From: Peptococcaceae bacterium CEB3
GTDB taxonomy: Bacteria; Bacillota; Desulfitobacteriia; Desulfitobacteriales; Desulfitobacteriaceae
Length of the DNA stretch: 64,000 nt
Reading direction: 5' to 3'
NCBI GenBank assembly: GCA_001029295.1
Contig: LDXJ01000063.1
Location: forward strand, 62,001-126,000
Below are positions 5,956 to 61,630 of the stretch, piece after piece. The position numbers and the translations under genes are program-made. The stretch's first letter is position 1; each line of letters starts with the position of its first letter. The notes under the pieces are model-generated. The model searched no databases and was not told where the DNA came from. It saw nothing but the letters and a program-made list of their open reading frames with translations.

Positions 5956-6096
5956 ATGGCTAAACATATTCAAACCGTGATTAGGGCGAATTTAAGTGCA
6001 AGCGTGAAGACCGGAGGGTGTGGTGCCTGTCAAACTTCATGCCAGTCAGCATGCAAAACGTCCTGTACGGTTGGAAATCAAGTGTGTGTCAAGTAG
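5956..6096 (+). CDS. scfA: SCIFF peptide (six cysteines in forty-five), ranthipeptide precursor
   Basis: A 46-residue peptide with the hallmark C-terminus GGCGACQTSCQSACKTSC, then TVGNQVC. Its six Cys are residues 22, 25, 29, 33, 37 and 44. SCIFF peptides are near-universal in Clostridia. Their cysteines are joined by the partner radical-SAM enzyme to neighbouring alpha or gamma carbons as thioethers, giving a ranthipeptide linked in some clostridia to quorum-type regulation. The maturase follows after 222 bases, matching the usual pair. The N-terminal half (MAKHIQTVIR) is the leader region. Confidence 0.95.
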   Translation: MAKHIQTVIRANLSASVKTGGCGACQTSCQSACKTSCTVGNQVCVK

Positions 6097-6318
6097 GTAC
6101 CCTTGTCTTTGTCGGCAGAAACCAGTGCTTAATCCCGTTGCGGAGGGAATAAGACGCAGGTACGGTTTCGGAACCCACCCCTGACTGGGATGGGTTCTGT
6201 TTCTGTTTTGATGGATTGTTTTGTGGATCATGGCAGCTATGGGTTCAAGTGCCCGCATCCCTGTGGCAGGCAGTGGGCGGCGATAACGGCCGGATTTTCG
6301 GTGAGAGAGAGGATTGTC

Positions 6319-7758
6319 ATGTTGGATTTGACCGGCTATAATTGGGAGAAAAATGTGCATGTATTTCGGCAGGGAGACCTCAATATTGTTTATGATGTAA
6401 ATTCGGGTTCTCTGCATATCGTCGACGAACTGACTTACCGGATTTTGCGGGTGTCGGGGACTTTAAGGGTCCTTTCGCCGGCGGAGATTAAGCGCGGGCT
6501 GGAGAGAGCCGCCGTGGATTTGGCTGCCGCGCGGGAAGTCCTGGACGAGCTGGCAGACCTGAAGGAAGAGGGTGTGCTCTTCTCAACGGAAGCGGAGGAG
6601 CTAGGCCCGAGGTACCCGGAGAAACCCCTGGTCAAGGCCATCTGTCTGCACGTGGCTCATGATTGCAATTTGCGTTGTGGCTACTGTTTTGCCGGATCGG
6701 GGGCTTTCGGCGGGAGCCGTATGTTAATGGATCCGGAAACCGGGAGGAGAGGAATTGACTTCGTCTTGTCCGCCTCCGGCCATCGCACTCACTGTGAGGT
6801 GGACTTTTTTGGCGGAGAGCCGCTGCTTAATTTTCCGCTTGTCCAAGAATTGGTTCACTATGGGCGGGAGGCAGCGGCAAAACGGCATAAGACTTTGAAG
6901 TTCACACTGACCACCAACGCGGTGCCTCTGACTAAGGAAATCGAGGAGTTTCTGGAAAAGGAAGATATCAGCGTCGTTTTGAGTTTAGATGGGCGGCCGG
7001 AAGTGCACGACAAAATGAGGCCCTTTGCCAACGGGCAGGGAAGTTATGACCGGGTGGTTCCGTCGATTCGGCGTTTTGCCCGGAGACGCCCGCAAAGTTC
7101 TCCTTATGCGGTTGGGACATATTATTATGTACGGGGAACCTACACCCACTTTAATTTGGACTTTGACCGGGATGTGGTCCACATGCTGGATTTGGGGCTT
7201 AAGCGAATATCGATGGAGCCTGTCGTCGCGTCTCCGGAAGAGCCCTACGCTTTCCAACCGGACGACTTGGAGACCATCCGGAAAAGTTATGATCGCCTGG
7301 GAGAGGAGATCATCGAACGGAGAGCGAGGGGCGAGGATTTCAGCTTTTTTCATTTCAATATGGCTTTAGAACAGGGCCCGTGTCTGCCCAAGCGGCTTGC
7401 GGGTTGTGGGGCGGGTCATGAATATGTGGCGATCTCCCCTGAAGGAGACCTTTATCCTTGTCATCAGTTCGTCGGTCAGGAACAATTTAAAATGGGTTCT
7501 CTTTATGCCGCCGATCCGCTGGGGCTGAACCGGGATCTGGTCGGGGCTTTTCGCACTGCGCACGTTTACGCCAAGCCCTCCTGCCGGGTCTGCTGGGCCC
7601 GTTTCTCCTGCAGCGGAGGGTGTCATGCCGCGAATTTCGCCGCGAGCGGAAGTTTGACGGAAGTTTACGCTTTGGGGTGTGAGTTCCAGAAAAAACGGTT
7701 GGAGATGGCCCTGTACCTCAAGGCGAAAGAGTTGCAGGCGGCGGGTCAGCACGACTGA
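6319..7758 (+). CDS. scfB: Radical SAM/SPASM SCIFF maturase (thioether-forming)
   Basis: Starts at ATG 6319 behind GAGAGAGAGG, giving 479 residues, the family's usual size. Residues 1-95 form the peptide-binding RRE-like domain (NIVYDVNSGSLHIVDELTY). The radical-SAM motif is C116-x3-C120-x2-C123 in HDCNLRCGYCFAG. The C-terminal SPASM/twitch region has many Cys: CGAGHEYVAISPEGDLYPC and CRVCWARFSCSGGC, then a final C in ALGCEF, binding auxiliary 4Fe-4S clusters. It installs thioether crosslinks in the adjacent SCIFF peptide using SAM and reductant. Confidence 0.95.
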   Translation: MLDLTGYNWEKNVHVFRQGDLNIVYDVNSGSLHIVDELTYRILRVSGTLRVLSPAEIKRGLERAAVDLAAAREVLDELADLKEEGVLFSTEAEELGPRYPEKPLVKAICLHVAHDCNLRCGYCFAGSGAFGGSRMLMDPETGRRGIDFVLSASGHRTHCEVDFFGGEPLLNFPLVQELVHYGREAAAKRHKTLKFTLTTNAVPLTKEIEEFLEKEDISVVLSLDGRPEVHDKMRPFANGQGSYDRVVPSIRRFARRRPQSSPYAVGTYYYVRGTYTHFNLDFDRDVVHMLDLGLKRISMEPVVASPEEPYAFQPDDLETIRKSYDRLGEEIIERRARGEDFSFFHFNMALEQGPCLPKRLAGCGAGHEYVAISPEGDLYPCHQFVGQEQFKMGSLYAADPLGLNRDLVGAFRTAHVYAKPSCRVCWARFSCSGGCHAANFAASGSLTEVYALGCEFQKKRLEMALYLKAKELQAAGQHD

Positions 7759-7908: not shown

Positions 7909-9927
7909 TTGACGGAGGTTGTTCGTTCGGCTTGCCCTTTGAACTGCCCGGACAGCTGCGCTTTTCTCGTTGAAAAGACGCAACAGGGACTGCGGGTTTA
8001 CGGTGACAGGGAGAACCCCATAACGCGCGGGTTTATTTGCGCTAAAGGACGGGCCTTAGCTGAACGAGTGTTTTCGCGCGACCGTTTGCGGTTTCCGCAG
8101 CTTCGGGCGGGAGCCTCCTGGAAACGGATATCCTGGGACGAAGTGTACGAACTTTTGGCAAGGGAAATCCGGCAGACTTTGGCGGAAACGGGCCCCCGGG
8201 GAATTCTTCATCATTTCGACTATGGCCATAACGGGGTTTTGCGGGCGCTAGACCGCCGATTTTTTCAGGCCTTGGGCGGCGCAACGGAGCCCAGGGGAAG
8301 TATGTGCTGGGGCGCCGGTTACCGGGCCCAGGAAATAGATTTCGGGGCGGTTCGCAGCAGCCTCTGGCAAGATCTGGTCCGGGCAGGGTTGATCATTCTT
8401 TGGGGGCGCGATCCGGCCGTTACGAACATCCACCTCCTGCCCGTTCTGCGGGAAGCGAGAAGGCAGGGGGCGAAGCTTATTGTCATCAATCCTGTCAGGG
8501 TCAGGAGTGCGGCTTTCGCAGACGCCTACTTCAGGGTTCATCCGGGCACAGACGGGGCTTTGGCTTTGGGCTTGGCGCACATTATTCTGGACCGTGGGTG
8601 GCAGGACAAAGACTTTGTCGAGGCCCATGTTGAGGGCTTTTCCGATTTTGCCGTCAGGGTGAAAGATTTCCCCCCGGCAAAGGTCTCCGCTCTCACCGGC
8701 ATGAGGGTGGAGGATATTCACTCTTTGGCGGAGTTGATTCGTCAGGAAAAACCGGTCTCATTCGTTTTGGGGTACGGACTGCAACGCTACACCCATGGGG
8801 GCAATACGGTTCGAGCCATCGATGCCCTGGCCGCGCTGACAGGCAATGTCGGGCGCCCCGGAGCGGGGGTTCACTTCGCTCACGCTTACCATAAAGGGAA
8901 GTTGAACAGTCTTTCTCTCCCCCCGGAGGACTGGCAAAGCCGGACATTTCCTCACGCTCTTCTGGCGCAAGGCTTAAGGCAAGCTGATCCGCCCGTGCGC
9001 ATGGCCTTTGTCACGCGCTCCAATCCGCTGGCTCAGCAGCCGGATTCCCTGCTTTGGCGGGAAGCATGGCAGGGAATTCGCTTTAAAGTCGTGCTTGATA
9101 CGGTTATGACAGAGACGGCCAAGCAGTCGGATCTCGTCCTGCCGGTCACGACTGTCTTCGAGGAAGAAGACTTGATCGCCACCTCGTGGAGTCCGTTTCT
9201 CCAATATGCGGGCAAAGTGTTGGAACCCCAAGGGGAAGCGAAACCGGAACCGCTTCTCTTCACAGAATTGGCCCGCGGATTGGGTTTGGGACGCTATTTT
9301 CCGTTTACGGCCTCAGAGTGGCTGGAATACGTGCTCGAACCCTTGGCACAGCAGGGGGTCACTCTGGGCCGATTGAAAGAAGGGCCTCTCCGGGCACCCT
9401 ATATTCCTGAGGTGGCCTGGGAAGATTGCCACTTTGCAACTCCGTCGGGAAAGGTCGAGTTATTTTCCGAAGTGGCCCGGAAGGAATCGGGCGATCCTGT
9501 GGCGAATTTTACCGGGGAACGGTCCGGAGTCCCGGACGGAGACGGATCCGAGCTCGAGGAAGAAACGGCGGAATTTCCGTTTTATCTTTTGACTCCTCAC
9601 CCGGCGGCGGGGATTCACTCCCAATTTATGGAGGGAAAAGAACTCCGGGTCTATATTCACCCCTCCCTGGCCGCACGATTCAGACTTTCACCGGGGGACA
9701 TGGTCCTTGTTTCGACTGCCGGGGGGCAGTTGCGGGCGCCGGTGGCAGTTTCGGAAGCTATTCACCCCGGCAGTGTTGTCATTCCGGAGGGCGCCGGTGG
9801 CAGTTTCGGAAGCTATTCACCCCGGCAGTGTTGTCATTCCGGAGGGCGCCGCGGCAGGGGGGATGGGGGTAAATCAGCTGATCAGAGGCAGGGTGTCAGA
9901 TTTGGGAGAGAGCACATCTTATTATGA
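7909..9927 (+). CDS. Molybdopterin oxidoreductase (DMSO reductase family), C-terminus frameshifted
   Basis: Starts at TTG 7909, 8 bases after AGGGGGAG. The N-terminus has the 4Fe-4S motif C9-x3-C13-x3-C17 and C44 (GFICAKGRAL). The molybdopterin domain follows (WGRDPAVTNIH and SFVLGYGLQRYTHGGNT). The dinucleotide-binding C-terminal domain begins near residue 550 (FYLLTPHPAAGIHSQF). A perfect 55-bp tandem duplication (9734-9843) shifts the frame after VVIPEG, replacing the expected tail with about 40 unrelated residues. Removing one copy restores GVNQLIRGRVSDLGES and a stop at 10006. There is no signal peptide or partner subunit, and the substrate is unknown. The enzyme may be inactive or the shift may be an assembly fault. 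Confidence 0.85.
   Translation: MTEVVRSACPLNCPDSCAFLVEKTQQGLRVYGDRENPITRGFICAKGRALAERVFSRDRLRFPQLRAGASWKRISWDEVYELLAREIRQTLAETGPRGILHHFDYGHNGVLRALDRRFFQALGGATEPRGSMCWGAGYRAQEIDFGAVRSSLWQDLVRAGLIILWGRDPAVTNIHLLPVLREARRQGAKLIVINPVRVRSAAFADAYFRVHPGTDGALALGLAHIILDRGWQDKDFVEAHVEGFSDFAVRVKDFPPAKVSALTGMRVEDIHSLAELIRQEKPVSFVLGYGLQRYTHGGNTVRAIDALAALTGNVGRPGAGVHFAHAYHKGKLNSLSLPPEDWQSRTFPHALLAQGLRQADPPVRMAFVTRSNPLAQQPDSLLWREAWQGIRFKVVLDTVMTETAKQSDLVLPVTTVFEEEDLIATSWSPFLQYAGKVLEPQGEAKPEPLLFTELARGLGLGRYFPFTASEWLEYVLEPLAQQGVTLGRLKEGPLRAPYIPEVAWEDCHFATPSGKVELFSEVARKESGDPVANFTGERSGVPDGDGSELEEETAEFPFYLLTPHPAAGIHSQFMEGKELRVYIHPSLAARFRLSPGDMVLVSTAGGQLRAPVAVSEAIHPGSVVIPEGAGGSFGSYSPRQCCHSGGRRGRGDGGKSADQRQGVRFGREHILL
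9734..9843. repeat. Perfect 55-bp tandem duplication
   Basis: Bases 9734-9788 are repeated exactly at 9789-9843, and GGGCGCCG occurs again at 9844. Fifty-five is not a multiple of three, so the duplication breaks the oxidoreductase frame. The 7-8 base repeats at the boundaries suit replication slippage. Confidence 0.95.
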
Positions 9928-10078
9928 GGAGCACTGCGCCCTGCGAGACGGGACAGAGCGCGGAAGCGCAAAGGACGGCCCAGAGGACGGAAAGCTGGGG
10001 CCCTGACGGAAAACCTGGTCCTGACGGAACAAAAGACCTTTTGGCCGGAGGCTGCAGAGGATTTCGGGGGGAGGGAGA

Positions 10079-12755: not shown

Positions 12756-13214
12756 ATGTTTGAGATCAAAATTATCGCTGCCGGCAAAATCCGCGAACGT
12801 TACCTGCAAGAAGGCGCAGCGGCTTACCGGCAGCGCTTGCGGGCGCACGCTCGGGTCGATATCGTGGAAGTGGCGGATGAGCCCTGCCCGCAGAGGCTTT
12901 CCGAGGCGGAAGAAGAAAATGTGAGGACCCGGGAAGGGAAGCGTTTGTTGGGCAGGGTTTCGGGGGACGATTTCGTGGTCCTTTTGGATATAGAAGGCCG
13001 GGAAATGGATTCCTCCGGTTTTGCGCACCTGCTGGAGGAGCTGGCGGAGCGTGGAAAGACCCGCCTCGTTTTCATCATCGGAGGTTCTTTAGGGGTGGCC
13101 GACAGAGTGCGGAGGAGAGCCGATTTTCGCTGGTCTTTCTCCCGGCTCACTTTTCCCCATCAACTGATGCGCTTGGCGCTCCTGGAACAGCTTAACAGAA
13201 TTTTGGTCAGGTAA
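12756..13214 (+). CDS. rlmH: RlmH-family 23S rRNA pseudouridine-1915 N3-methyltransferase, lacking the C-terminal tail
   Basis: A SPOUT-class methyltransferase of 152 residues. The SAM-binding knot is intact: FIIGGSLGVADRV, then FSRLTFPHQLMRLALLEQ. Typical RlmH proteins continue for about 16 more residues (IYRAF...GEPYHK), with a conserved PYHK tail that helps form the active site across the dimer. Here the chain ends LLEQLNRILVR, and no alternative frame restores the tail. Position after htrA is canonical. A second RlmH-like gene that keeps the tail lies convergent 92 bases downstream, so the two may work together. Confidence 0.9.
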   Translation: MFEIKIIAAGKIRERYLQEGAAAYRQRLRAHARVDIVEVADEPCPQRLSEAEEENVRTREGKRLLGRVSGDDFVVLLDIEGREMDSSGFAHLLEELAERGKTRLVFIIGGSLGVADRVRRRADFRWSFSRLTFPHQLMRLALLEQLNRILVR

Positions 13215-13306: not shown

Positions 13307-13876
13307 CTACTTGTGGTAAGGTTCGTGATTTAGAATGCGGTAAGCGCGATAGAGCTGTTCGTATACCAGCGTGGCCTGTAAGCCCAGGTCCATGTCCAAA
13401 GGAGTCAGGGTCAGGATCTCATATTCAGGATATACGGCGGAAGACGAGAGAGCAGGCGACGAAAGAGGGGAAGACGAGGAAGCTGGCGACGAGACAGGGG
13501 AAGACGAGAAAGCAGAAGGCGAGAAAGGGGATACTTCAGCTTGATCCGGGATGATCCGGGGTGCGTTCCGGATGAGTCCTGTCAAGGTAGGGAGTAAGTT
13601 GGGCGCACTCAGTATAAAGGCGGTTTCCGAGATTCCCGCAAACATTAAGGTGTTGATTCTGTCGGCCAATTTCTCGGAGGACAGCGATTCTCCGCCATTG
13701 TGGGATATCAGGATCTTGTGAACTTGCGGGGAGAGATCGCTCCTCAGTTGTTCACCGGATATGAAGGGCACTTGGCGTATCCGGCAATACCGGGTTAAAC
13801 GCTTTTCGTACTCACGTATGGCATCGACGTAGAAACCCTCGATTTTTCCCCCTAAGAGATAAACACTGAAGTTCAT
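13307..13876 (-). CDS. RlmH-like SPOUT protein with degenerate SAM loop and Ser/Pro insert
   Basis: 189 residues, starting at ATG 13876 with GGAGGAC 8 bases upstream, so it looks expressed. The N-terminus (MNFSVYLLGGKIEGFYVDAIREYEKRL) and the C-terminus (VYEQLYRAYRILNHEPYHK) are RlmH-like. The glycine-rich SAM loop is replaced by FILSAPNLLP, and the FPHQL segment is replaced by LDMDLGLQ. A 30-residue Ser/Pro insert encoded by three 30-bp repeats lies just before the C-terminal strand; without it the length is 159, the usual RlmH length. Methylation alone looks unlikely. It may be a partner subunit of the preceding RlmH, or a decaying paralogue. Confidence 0.75.
   Translation of the reverse strand: MNFSVYLLGGKIEGFYVDAIREYEKRLTRYCRIRQVPFISGEQLRSDLSPQVHKILISHNGGESLSSEKLADRINTLMFAGISETAFILSAPNLLPTLTGLIRNAPRIIPDQAEVSPFSPSAFSSSPVSSPASSSSPLSSPALSSSAVYPEYEILTLTPLDMDLGLQATLVYEQLYRAYRILNHEPYHK
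13441..13530. repeat. Three tandem 30-bp repeats in the RlmH-like gene
   Basis: Units at 13441-13470, 13471-13500 and 13501-13530 each begin AAGACGAG and end with GGGG. On the minus strand they encode 10-residue units such as PLSSPALSSS and PVSSPASSSS. The period is a multiple of three, so the frame is kept. Confidence 0.9.
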
Positions 13877-59858: not shown

Positions 59859-61630
59859 AGACCGAAAAAGCGGTTGTATTAGAGAGGTCGGGGAATACCT
59901 GCACCGTCTTGACAGCGGATGGCTCTTTTCGCAGGGTGCGAGCGCCTCTGGCTGCCCAAGTCGGGCAGGAGATTGAAATCAGGGAATCGCGCGGCCTGAC
60001 AAACCGCGGGGGATTCCGGGTTTGGGCGACCGCCGCGGTTCTGCTGTTCCTGGCCCTGACGGGTACCTGGCTGGCCGGGGGCCGGTTAACCGGAATGAAA
60101 ACCAAGGCGGTAGGACTGAAAGAGGTTCCCGCAGCTATCCTGTCCGTGGATATCAATCCGAGTCTGGAACTGCAATTAGACGGACAGGCGCGCGTACTCC
60201 GGATCAAAGCGTTGAATGCCGATGCCCGCACTCTCCTGAAGGGTGTTGCTTACCAAGGCCAGCCGGATCAGGAGGTTTTGGCGGAGATCGTGGGGCGCGC
60301 GCAGAAACTTCATTTTCTCAGCCGGGAGCATCCCTGGATCCTCCTGGGATTAGCCCCTATGGACGGAAAGGAAGCGGCCCTTACCGAGTACCATCTGTCC
60401 GCCGTGGCGGGGCGCCTGGCGGTTCAAATGGACGCGGGGGGAAACACCTTTCACGTTGCTGCCTATCAATTGAATGGGACCGAGCAAAAACAAGCCGTGG
60501 CGCAGGGTTTGACACCCGGTCAATATGCCTTGTGGCGCAGTGCCAAAAAAGCGGGTTTTTCCCTGACGGCAAAAGCCATGTCCGATCCCGCGCAAAGGGA
60601 CCGTCTTCTGTCCGAACCGAAGGTGCAGGCCGAGACCCGTTCTTTGGGAGGAGTTCTCGACCTGGGACAGGCAATCCCGAACCGCGGCGGGGGGCAAGCC
60701 CTCTTGGGGCAAGGTGCCGCGACGAAGGCCCTTCCCCAAGAGAGCACAGGCAGGCCGGCGGGAAGCGCGGCCGGGCTGCGGGCGAATCCGGCGGACGGGA
60801 CGACGCCGGCCGGGACGGCTTCCTCAGGGAAGGTCCGCGGCGGGAGTGCCCCCGGGCGGACGTTCCCCGTACAGGTCGCTCCTGGCAGGCCGACCCCCGC
60901 TAAGCCGGTTGAGACAGTACCGCCGGCAAGGAGCACTCCGCCGGGAGGGCAAGGAAGCGGGGCGGCGGCAGGGAACAAGACCGGGACAAGAGACGGTGCC
61001 GGACCCACGCTCCCGCAGAGCGGCCAAGGCGCTTCAGCCCGGGATTGGGAGAGATTTTACCGTGATTTCATAAAACGGATCCCCACGAGCGGGATCCGGG
61101 GTCAGGGCGGACTGTCCTCAGAAAAGTGGCGGGAAATGTTCGAGCAATCCTGGCAAAAAACGTTCGGCAAACCCCCTGACAAATCCCTGGGCGAATCCTG
61201 GGACAAGGCCCTGGGCAGGGCTCTTGACAGAGTGGGGGCCGACTCTTGGGACAAGGCCCTCAGCAAGTCTCTCGACAAAGCGGGGGCAGAATCCTGGGAC
61301 AAGGCCCTCAACAGGCCCCTTGACAAATCTTTGGGTGAATCTTTGAGCAAGATCCTTAGAGACTCTCTCGACAAACCCCTGAAGGGATCTTTAGACAACG
61401 CTCTTGGCAAGACTTTCGCCAAACCTCTGGCTGGTTCCTTAGGAAATAGGCCGGGTTCAAAGCCCGAGGATCCGATCATAAAAGCGTTCGGTCTCAGCCG
61501 CCATTTTCTCGACAGTAAACTCCTGCCGGCGCCCATCGGCGGAACGGACAAGGGATGCGGCCAACACGGGGTCGGACAAGACGGCGGCGCAAGCCCGGGC
61601 CAGGGCTTCGGGTTCACCGGGGGGGACTAA
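59855..61630 (+). CDS. rsgI: Anti-sigma-I factor RsgI with 16-residue repeats
   Basis: 591 residues. An N-terminal RsgI anti-sigma domain (1-50) is followed by a single membrane helix (about 57-78) and the periplasmic RsgI_N-like domain containing AILSVDINPSLELQLD. A long Pro/Gly/Ala-rich linker (about 290-400) follows, then six 16-residue repeats (434-529). The last 59 codons run antisense through the 3' end of the convergent glycosyltransferase gene and look unselected. The extracellular end normally senses a polysaccharide or undergoes cleavage; no carbohydrate-binding domain is recognised here. Confidence 0.88.
   Translation: MKTEKAVVLERSGNTCTVLTADGSFRRVRAPLAAQVGQEIEIRESRGLTNRGGFRVWATAAVLLFLALTGTWLAGGRLTGMKTKAVGLKEVPAAILSVDINPSLELQLDGQARVLRIKALNADARTLLKGVAYQGQPDQEVLAEIVGRAQKLHFLSREHPWILLGLAPMDGKEAALTEYHLSAVAGRLAVQMDAGGNTFHVAAYQLNGTEQKQAVAQGLTPGQYALWRSAKKAGFSLTAKAMSDPAQRDRLLSEPKVQAETRSLGGVLDLGQAIPNRGGGQALLGQGAATKALPQESTGRPAGSAAGLRANPADGTTPAGTASSGKVRGGSAPGRTFPVQVAPGRPTPAKPVETVPPARSTPPGGQGSGAAAGNKTGTRDGAGPTLPQSGQGASARDWERFYRDFIKRIPTSGIRGQGGLSSEKWREMFEQSWQKTFGKPPDKSLGESWDKALGRALDRVGADSWDKALSKSLDKAGAESWDKALNRPLDKSLGESLSKILRDSLDKPLKGSLDNALGKTFAKPLAGSLGNRPGSKPEDPIIKAFGLSRHFLDSKLLPAPIGGTDKGCGQHGVGQDGGASPGQGFGFTGGD
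61154..61441. repeat. Six 48-bp repeats in rsgI encoding DKALxxxLDKxGxESW-like units
   Basis: Six in-frame 16-codon units run from 61154 to 61441, e.g. DKALGRALDRVGADSW and DKALSKSLDKAGAESW. The later units are more diverged (DNALGKTFAKPLAGSL). The pattern is amphipathic and rich in Asp-Lys pairs. Confidence 0.9.

Follow-up and report, generated by a model that had tools for sequence, protein, structure and literature searches.

A 55-bp tandem duplication in Peptococcaceae bacterium CEB3 displaces the conserved C-terminus of a molybdopterin oxidoreductase, probably through recent and revertible slippage

The window analysed here is a stretch of 64,000 nucleotides from the genome of Peptococcaceae bacterium CEB3, a draft of 64 contigs and 5.31 Mb. 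Within it, a gene of the CISM/DMSO-reductase superfamily lies downstream of a SCIFF peptide maturase gene and contains, close to its 3' end, two head-to-tail copies of a 55-bp segment. The relevant features are the following.

5956-6096, + strand: 46-aa peptide with six cysteines, presumed SCIFF-type precursor (ORF read by eye)
6190-7758, + strand: SCIFF peptide maturase ScfB, the upstream neighbour (TIGR03974, 557.6 bits, cut-off 425)
7909-9927, + strand: molybdopterin oxidoreductase ORF (CISM/DMSO-reductase superfamily), 672 aa, TTG start, 629 native residues followed by 43 out-of-frame residues (ORF list, Pfam, orthologue alignment)
9734-9788, + strand: first 55-bp copy (Tandem Repeats Finder, string comparison)
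9789-9843, + strand: second, identical 55-bp copy, the frame being shifted after the first copy (Tandem Repeats Finder, string comparison)
9844-9851, + strand: 8-bp third partial copy, GGGCGCCG, a microhomology footprint together with the copies at 9734 and 9789 (string comparison, end-homology count)
9852-10006, + strand: coding sequence of the native C-terminus, now displaced into the other frame, which ends at 10006 and encodes the motif GVNQL...SDLGESTSYY (ORFs, orthologue alignment)

Three Pfam profiles score above their cut-offs in the 672-residue product, namely PF04879, PF00384 and PF01568 (Fe4S4, molybdopterin and dinucleotide-binding domains), which places the protein in the CISM/DMSO-reductase superfamily and bears out the molybdopterin oxidoreductase named in the original prediction. 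No named subtype (formate dehydrogenase, Nap, DMSO reductase or other) could be assigned: with the shifted protein as the query, no NCBIfam cut-off was reached among the 25 listed of 27 families, the best being TIGR01591 with 223.8 bits against a cut-off of 666.25. The source genome also encodes less similar paralogues, of which the best three share 33-35% identity.

The coding frame opened at 7909 has no stop before 9927. Since 55 equals 3n+1, the second copy makes this frame lose the family C-terminus and end in unrelated residues, with 51 native residues lost (of which 32 align with the family) and 43 gained. The native end is encoded in the frame that stops at 10006, which is open from 9707. 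In the shifted protein, the PF01568 match stops at profile position 82 of 110; the frame ending at 10006 matches positions 61-106, below the cut-off (19.2 vs 26.8 bits).

The two copies are identical by direct string comparison, and Tandem Repeats Finder delimits an array at 9734-9851 (118 bp) with a period of 55, 2.1 copies, 100% matches and no indels, so that the exact duplication initially described is confirmed. The 8 bp placed directly after the second copy match the start of the unit. In the genome, the array is unique and gives two overlapping matches, both on contig 63 (71734-71796 and 71789-71851). At the orthologue loci, no exact direct repeat longer than 10 bp occurs in the 37 ORF ends scanned, which belong to the 17 orthologues and to ORFs next to them; an exact 55-bp tandem repeat in unique sequence is therefore not a product of chance.

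The family search covered 45 genomes (E <= 1e-60) and found matches in 40 of them. An orthologue, defined by at least 59% identity (the next matches have at most 37%), is present in 18 of the 45 genomes, including that of the window. The 17 other orthologues exclude a gene that ends after residue 285, its C-terminus being beyond reach (L012), as well as paralogues at 30-35% identity (L031-L042); L004-L011 are the same genes as rows of the 45-genome search and were counted once. One of the 17 (L030) is without its N-terminus because its contig ends. All 17 carry one copy of the 55-bp unit and keep the family C-terminus, in agreement with the earlier claim that the duplication diverts the frame and leaves this C-terminus in the frame stopping at 10006. 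The 43-residue shifted tail occurs at the C-terminus of none of the 17. The possibility, raised with the original prediction, that homologues naturally end in the shifted frame thus fails, and a natural variant C-terminus was rejected on the same count.

In the sister species Acididesulfobacillus acetoxydans, the gene (L003) is intact and encodes 666 aa with 88% identity. Excerpts of the corresponding genome report (PMC8982180) indicate PacBio sequencing polished with Illumina reads, and an average amino acid identity of 89.3% between CEB3 and A. acetoxydans. For the genus, a metagenome bin at 96% ANI to Acididesulfobacillus sp001029295 has also been described (PMC13188906). By tblastn, the match to L003 spans residues 1-672 of the shifted query; over the shifted tail, this match is a DNA-level likeness in an unused L003 frame, the gene's own frame ending in the family C-terminus.

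The genetic neighbourhood is shared as well. A same-strand upstream ORF ending in CSGGCH(A/S)AN was found at 16 of the 17 orthologue loci by alignment of ORF ends, the 17th being cut by its contig. The recurrence of this maturase-motif ORF beside the oxidoreductase suggests, at the level of gene order, a functional link between the SCIFF maturase-like ORF and the enzyme. We take the 46-aa six-cysteine peptide to be a member of the SCIFF-type family. Among the papers listed by a literature search, we found none that links SCIFF or ranthipeptides with molybdopterin in its title or the first lines of its abstract.

Conservation in the lost block is no lower than in the remainder of the protein. 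Across the 16 full-length orthologues, 13 of its 32 columns are invariant vs 180 of the 626 preceding ones, and 12 of 32 vs 157 of 626 when the truncated L030 is counted. We compared AlphaFold models of the intact L003 protein and of the shifted protein, taking the best of five for each (mean pLDDT from 80.4 to 62.0 for L003 and from 75.1 to 61.1 for the shifted protein). The mean pLDDT of the best models is 80.4 for L003 vs 75.1 for the shifted protein; it lies at 66-73 over residues 621-666 of L003 (the last 46) vs 20-31 from residue 621 onwards in the shifted protein, partly because no relative aligns to the new tail, and at 83-88 vs 42-64 over residues 581-620. Among the 50 structural matches listed (Z 29.8-35.2), the L003 model aligns with solved relatives from end to end (from residue 1-4 to residue 661-666), and the alignment extends to the C-terminus of formate dehydrogenases and Nap. 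In enzymes of this family, the terminal part of domain IV contributes to holding the two dinucleotide cofactors. As it is the end of the molybdopterin-dinucleotide-binding domain that is lost, the enzyme encoded by the two-copy gene is, judging from conservation and models, most likely inactive or weakened. Some residual activity of the shifted protein is possible, since the Fe4S4 and main molybdopterin domains are untouched by the frame shift.

Could the altered protein nevertheless be functional, either because the new C-terminus is tolerated or because +1 ribosomal frameshifting restores the native C-terminus with an insertion of 18 residues? As the 10006 frame is open from 9707, the ribosome could shift by +1 at any point of the overlap downstream of the first copy, and the frame is otherwise intact and shows purifying selection relative to L003. 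Indeed, in the comparison with L003, the 609 codons that precede the junction have a dN/dS of 0.157, and the 33 codons of the displaced tail have 0.199, a value that is imprecise for so few codons. Both values, however, mostly reflect the time before the duplication, and the lost block, besides its conservation, is present in all 17 other orthologues, which makes a functional protein very unlikely. Loss or attenuation of activity remains the reading that we favour, and the duplication appears to be recent relative to the split from the sister species (dS of 0.35 to L003), because the copies are identical, decay is not visible and there is no other stop.

Concerning its origin, the locus combines exact head-to-tail copies, a short direct repeat at both ends and at the junction, and a single-copy state in every other orthologue, all of which characterise microhomology-mediated tandem duplications. 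The 8-bp repeats at the ends of the unit are the expected footprint of microhomology-mediated slippage. Short boundary repeats suggesting slippage had been proposed from the outset, and they do fit slippage, with a length of 8 bp in place of the 7 written (GGGCGCC). Of 458,346 random 55-bp segments drawn from the sampled genome away from the array, 99 have end homology of at least 8 bp (2.2e-4; 0.022%). At the same site, the longest exact match at a shift of 55 is 1-4 bp in the 17 other orthologues, so the slippage site is private to the source genome among the genomes compared. We suggest that a recent ancestor of this Acididesulfobacillus strain carried a single-copy gene in which two of these direct repeats lay at a distance of 55 bp. 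As the gene was replicated, the nascent strand would have re-paired with the upstream repeat, and the segment (repeat plus 47 bp) would have been copied twice. The product of such a slippage would be A-R-B-R-B-R-C, which is the anatomy observed, and the array could shrink back to one copy via the same slippage. Slippage, as against another microhomology mechanism, is what we infer. A special DNA structure was also considered as a cause and rejected: the hairpin potential of the unit is unremarkable (z of -1.35 to -1.49 vs shuffles, three stretches folded), the unit folding no better than many shuffles, and we therefore make no claim of hairpin-driven slippage.

The same anatomy might be expected from an assembly or library artefact, in which the genome has one copy and the second stems from a faulty join between contigs or from a chimeric PCR product. 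The copies are perfect and the draft is in 64 contigs. Moreover, 55 is a common assembler word length, and a join without overlap trimming leaves exactly such a repeat. The Illumina reads of CEB3, at 112 bp (PMC4541261), are also shorter than the 118-bp array. CEB3 was, however, assembled by Newbler and Mira from 454 plus Illumina reads (PMC4541261), which makes the word-length idea inapplicable. A blind join would have no reason to land on 8-bp direct repeats, given the above frequency of 2.2e-4, and a 55-bp exact tandem repeat is found nowhere else in the 464,000 bases surveyed, which make up about 9% of the genome. The join at a k-mer is thus disfavoured by the footprint, by the lack of other 55-bp repeats and by an overlap-type assembly. 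In addition, the authors of a long-read study of Mycobacterium tuberculosis, in an excerpt that deals with an older reference, expect assembly errors to collapse copies and not to expand them (PMC12817950). For these reasons, we consider an artefact unlikely.

The repeat background of both genomes was also surveyed. In the sampled part of the source genome (464 kb at 54.6% G+C), exact tandem duplications with a unit of 12-400 bp amount to 18 rows, some of them overlapping, and the 55-bp array is the only one whose unit exceeds 28 bp. In 400,000 bases of A. acetoxydans, there are 53 rows, many within few arrays, and seven of them have units of 33-63 bp; units of about this size therefore occur elsewhere in the genus. 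At L063, L068 and L069, A. acetoxydans has clusters of exact repeat arrays whose units measure 14, 18, 19 and 21 bp, and the Acididesulfobacillus lineage seems rich in tandem repeats. Other frame breaks were screened by comparing sister-genome ORFs with the sampled stretches (at least 70% identity, 349 pairs), a comparison outside which the oxidoreductase gene falls because two sampled stretches break off within its sister copy. Five of the 349 pairs looked split between frames, two of these in the window; by eye, one of the two seems to be the sister ORF extended out of frame across a gene junction, presumably mreB/wecG-like.

The allele is ordinary in kind. Its closest precedent is rpoS819 of Escherichia coli, a 46-bp tandem duplication at the 3' end of rpoS, which is likewise a unit that is not a multiple of three, lies near a gene's 3' end and alters the C-terminus. 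According to excerpts of two reports (PMC5444009, PMC7160681), rpoS819 yields a longer, attenuated protein and makes up 70% of the population after 12 h of growth, the remainder being wild-type, with a 92-bp form present from day 10. RpoS is, however, a regulator for which a growth advantage of the allele in starvation was reported, whereas the gene described here encodes a redox enzyme. Similarly, in fission yeast ssp1, a segment of the coding region is duplicated between microhomologies and causes a premature stop; these duplications are reversible as summarised in part of a review (PMC13207564), but they concern a eukaryote, whereas we describe one event in one draft bacterial genome. Finally, M. 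tuberculosis promoters gain and lose units of similar size (57 bp for dop), and such repeats are reported to be variable in isogenic populations, with a rate of 1e-2 to 1e-3 per chromosome (PMC12817950). Those repeats lie in promoters and alter expression, whereas the 55-bp unit lies in a coding region and shifts the frame. By analogy, reversion to one copy by slippage is likely and copy-number heterogeneity in culture is plausible; as the array can shrink by the same slippage, some cells may carry the intact form.

Such precedents lead to the question of a dedicated phase-variation (contingency) locus, in which the enzyme would be switched by gain or loss of the unit and the slippage site would be under selection. 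With a length of 3n+1, a unit located at a gene's end would switch the frame, and the rpoS819 and M. tuberculosis repeats indicate, in the extracts cited above, that repeats of this size can vary in cultures. The slippage-prone repeat expected in relatives at the same site was not found, none of the 17 other orthologues, all single-copy, having an exact match above 4 bp at a shift of 55, and there is no multi-copy array. Phase variation usually switches surface antigens and modification enzymes, whereas the gene described here encodes a redox enzyme, and inspection by eye shows no export signal at its N-terminus. With the boundary repeats absent at this site in all 17, we regard an evolved switch as highly improbable.

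Of the three readings originally left side by side, recent inactivation or attenuation is thus favoured, while the phase-variation switch and the assembly artefact are both disfavoured. We consider it probable that this is an accidental allele, born of a recent slippage duplication, which disables or weakens the CISM-family molybdoenzyme and could revert. More speculatively, the culture might be a mixture of one-copy and two-copy cells in which the two-copy allele was selected, since a weakened SCIFF-linked molybdoenzyme would help in acidic or laboratory growth; we find this rather doubtful, but if it were true, the 8-bp repeats would act as a fortuitous, reversible off-switch.

Annotations of the gene should note the frame-disrupting duplication, and the species should not be called devoid of the enzyme. 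More generally, the case illustrates how a conserved enzyme of a reference genome can be silently disabled when slippage occurs once between a pair of short repeats, with a simple way back, and the allele offers a natural test of the cellular role of this uncharacterised molybdoenzyme.

Other repeats were noticed in the window. At 2745-2982, a 42-bp array of 5.7 copies encodes in-frame 14-aa repeats (ESDLQEVKTSQSRF) in a coiled-coil-like reading frame of the minus strand and thus keeps the frame, in contrast to the frame-breaking 55-bp unit. At 61172-61341, a 48-bp array, also a multiple of three, encodes 16-aa repeats. Downstream of the oxidoreductase, two rlmH-like genes face each other, at 12756-13214 (+ strand) and 13307-13876 (- strand). 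The second is divergent (best score 47.7 bits vs a cut-off of 172) and contains an in-frame 15/30-bp repeat array at 13437-13531; a similar second ORF, of 158 aa, occupies the corresponding place in A. acetoxydans.
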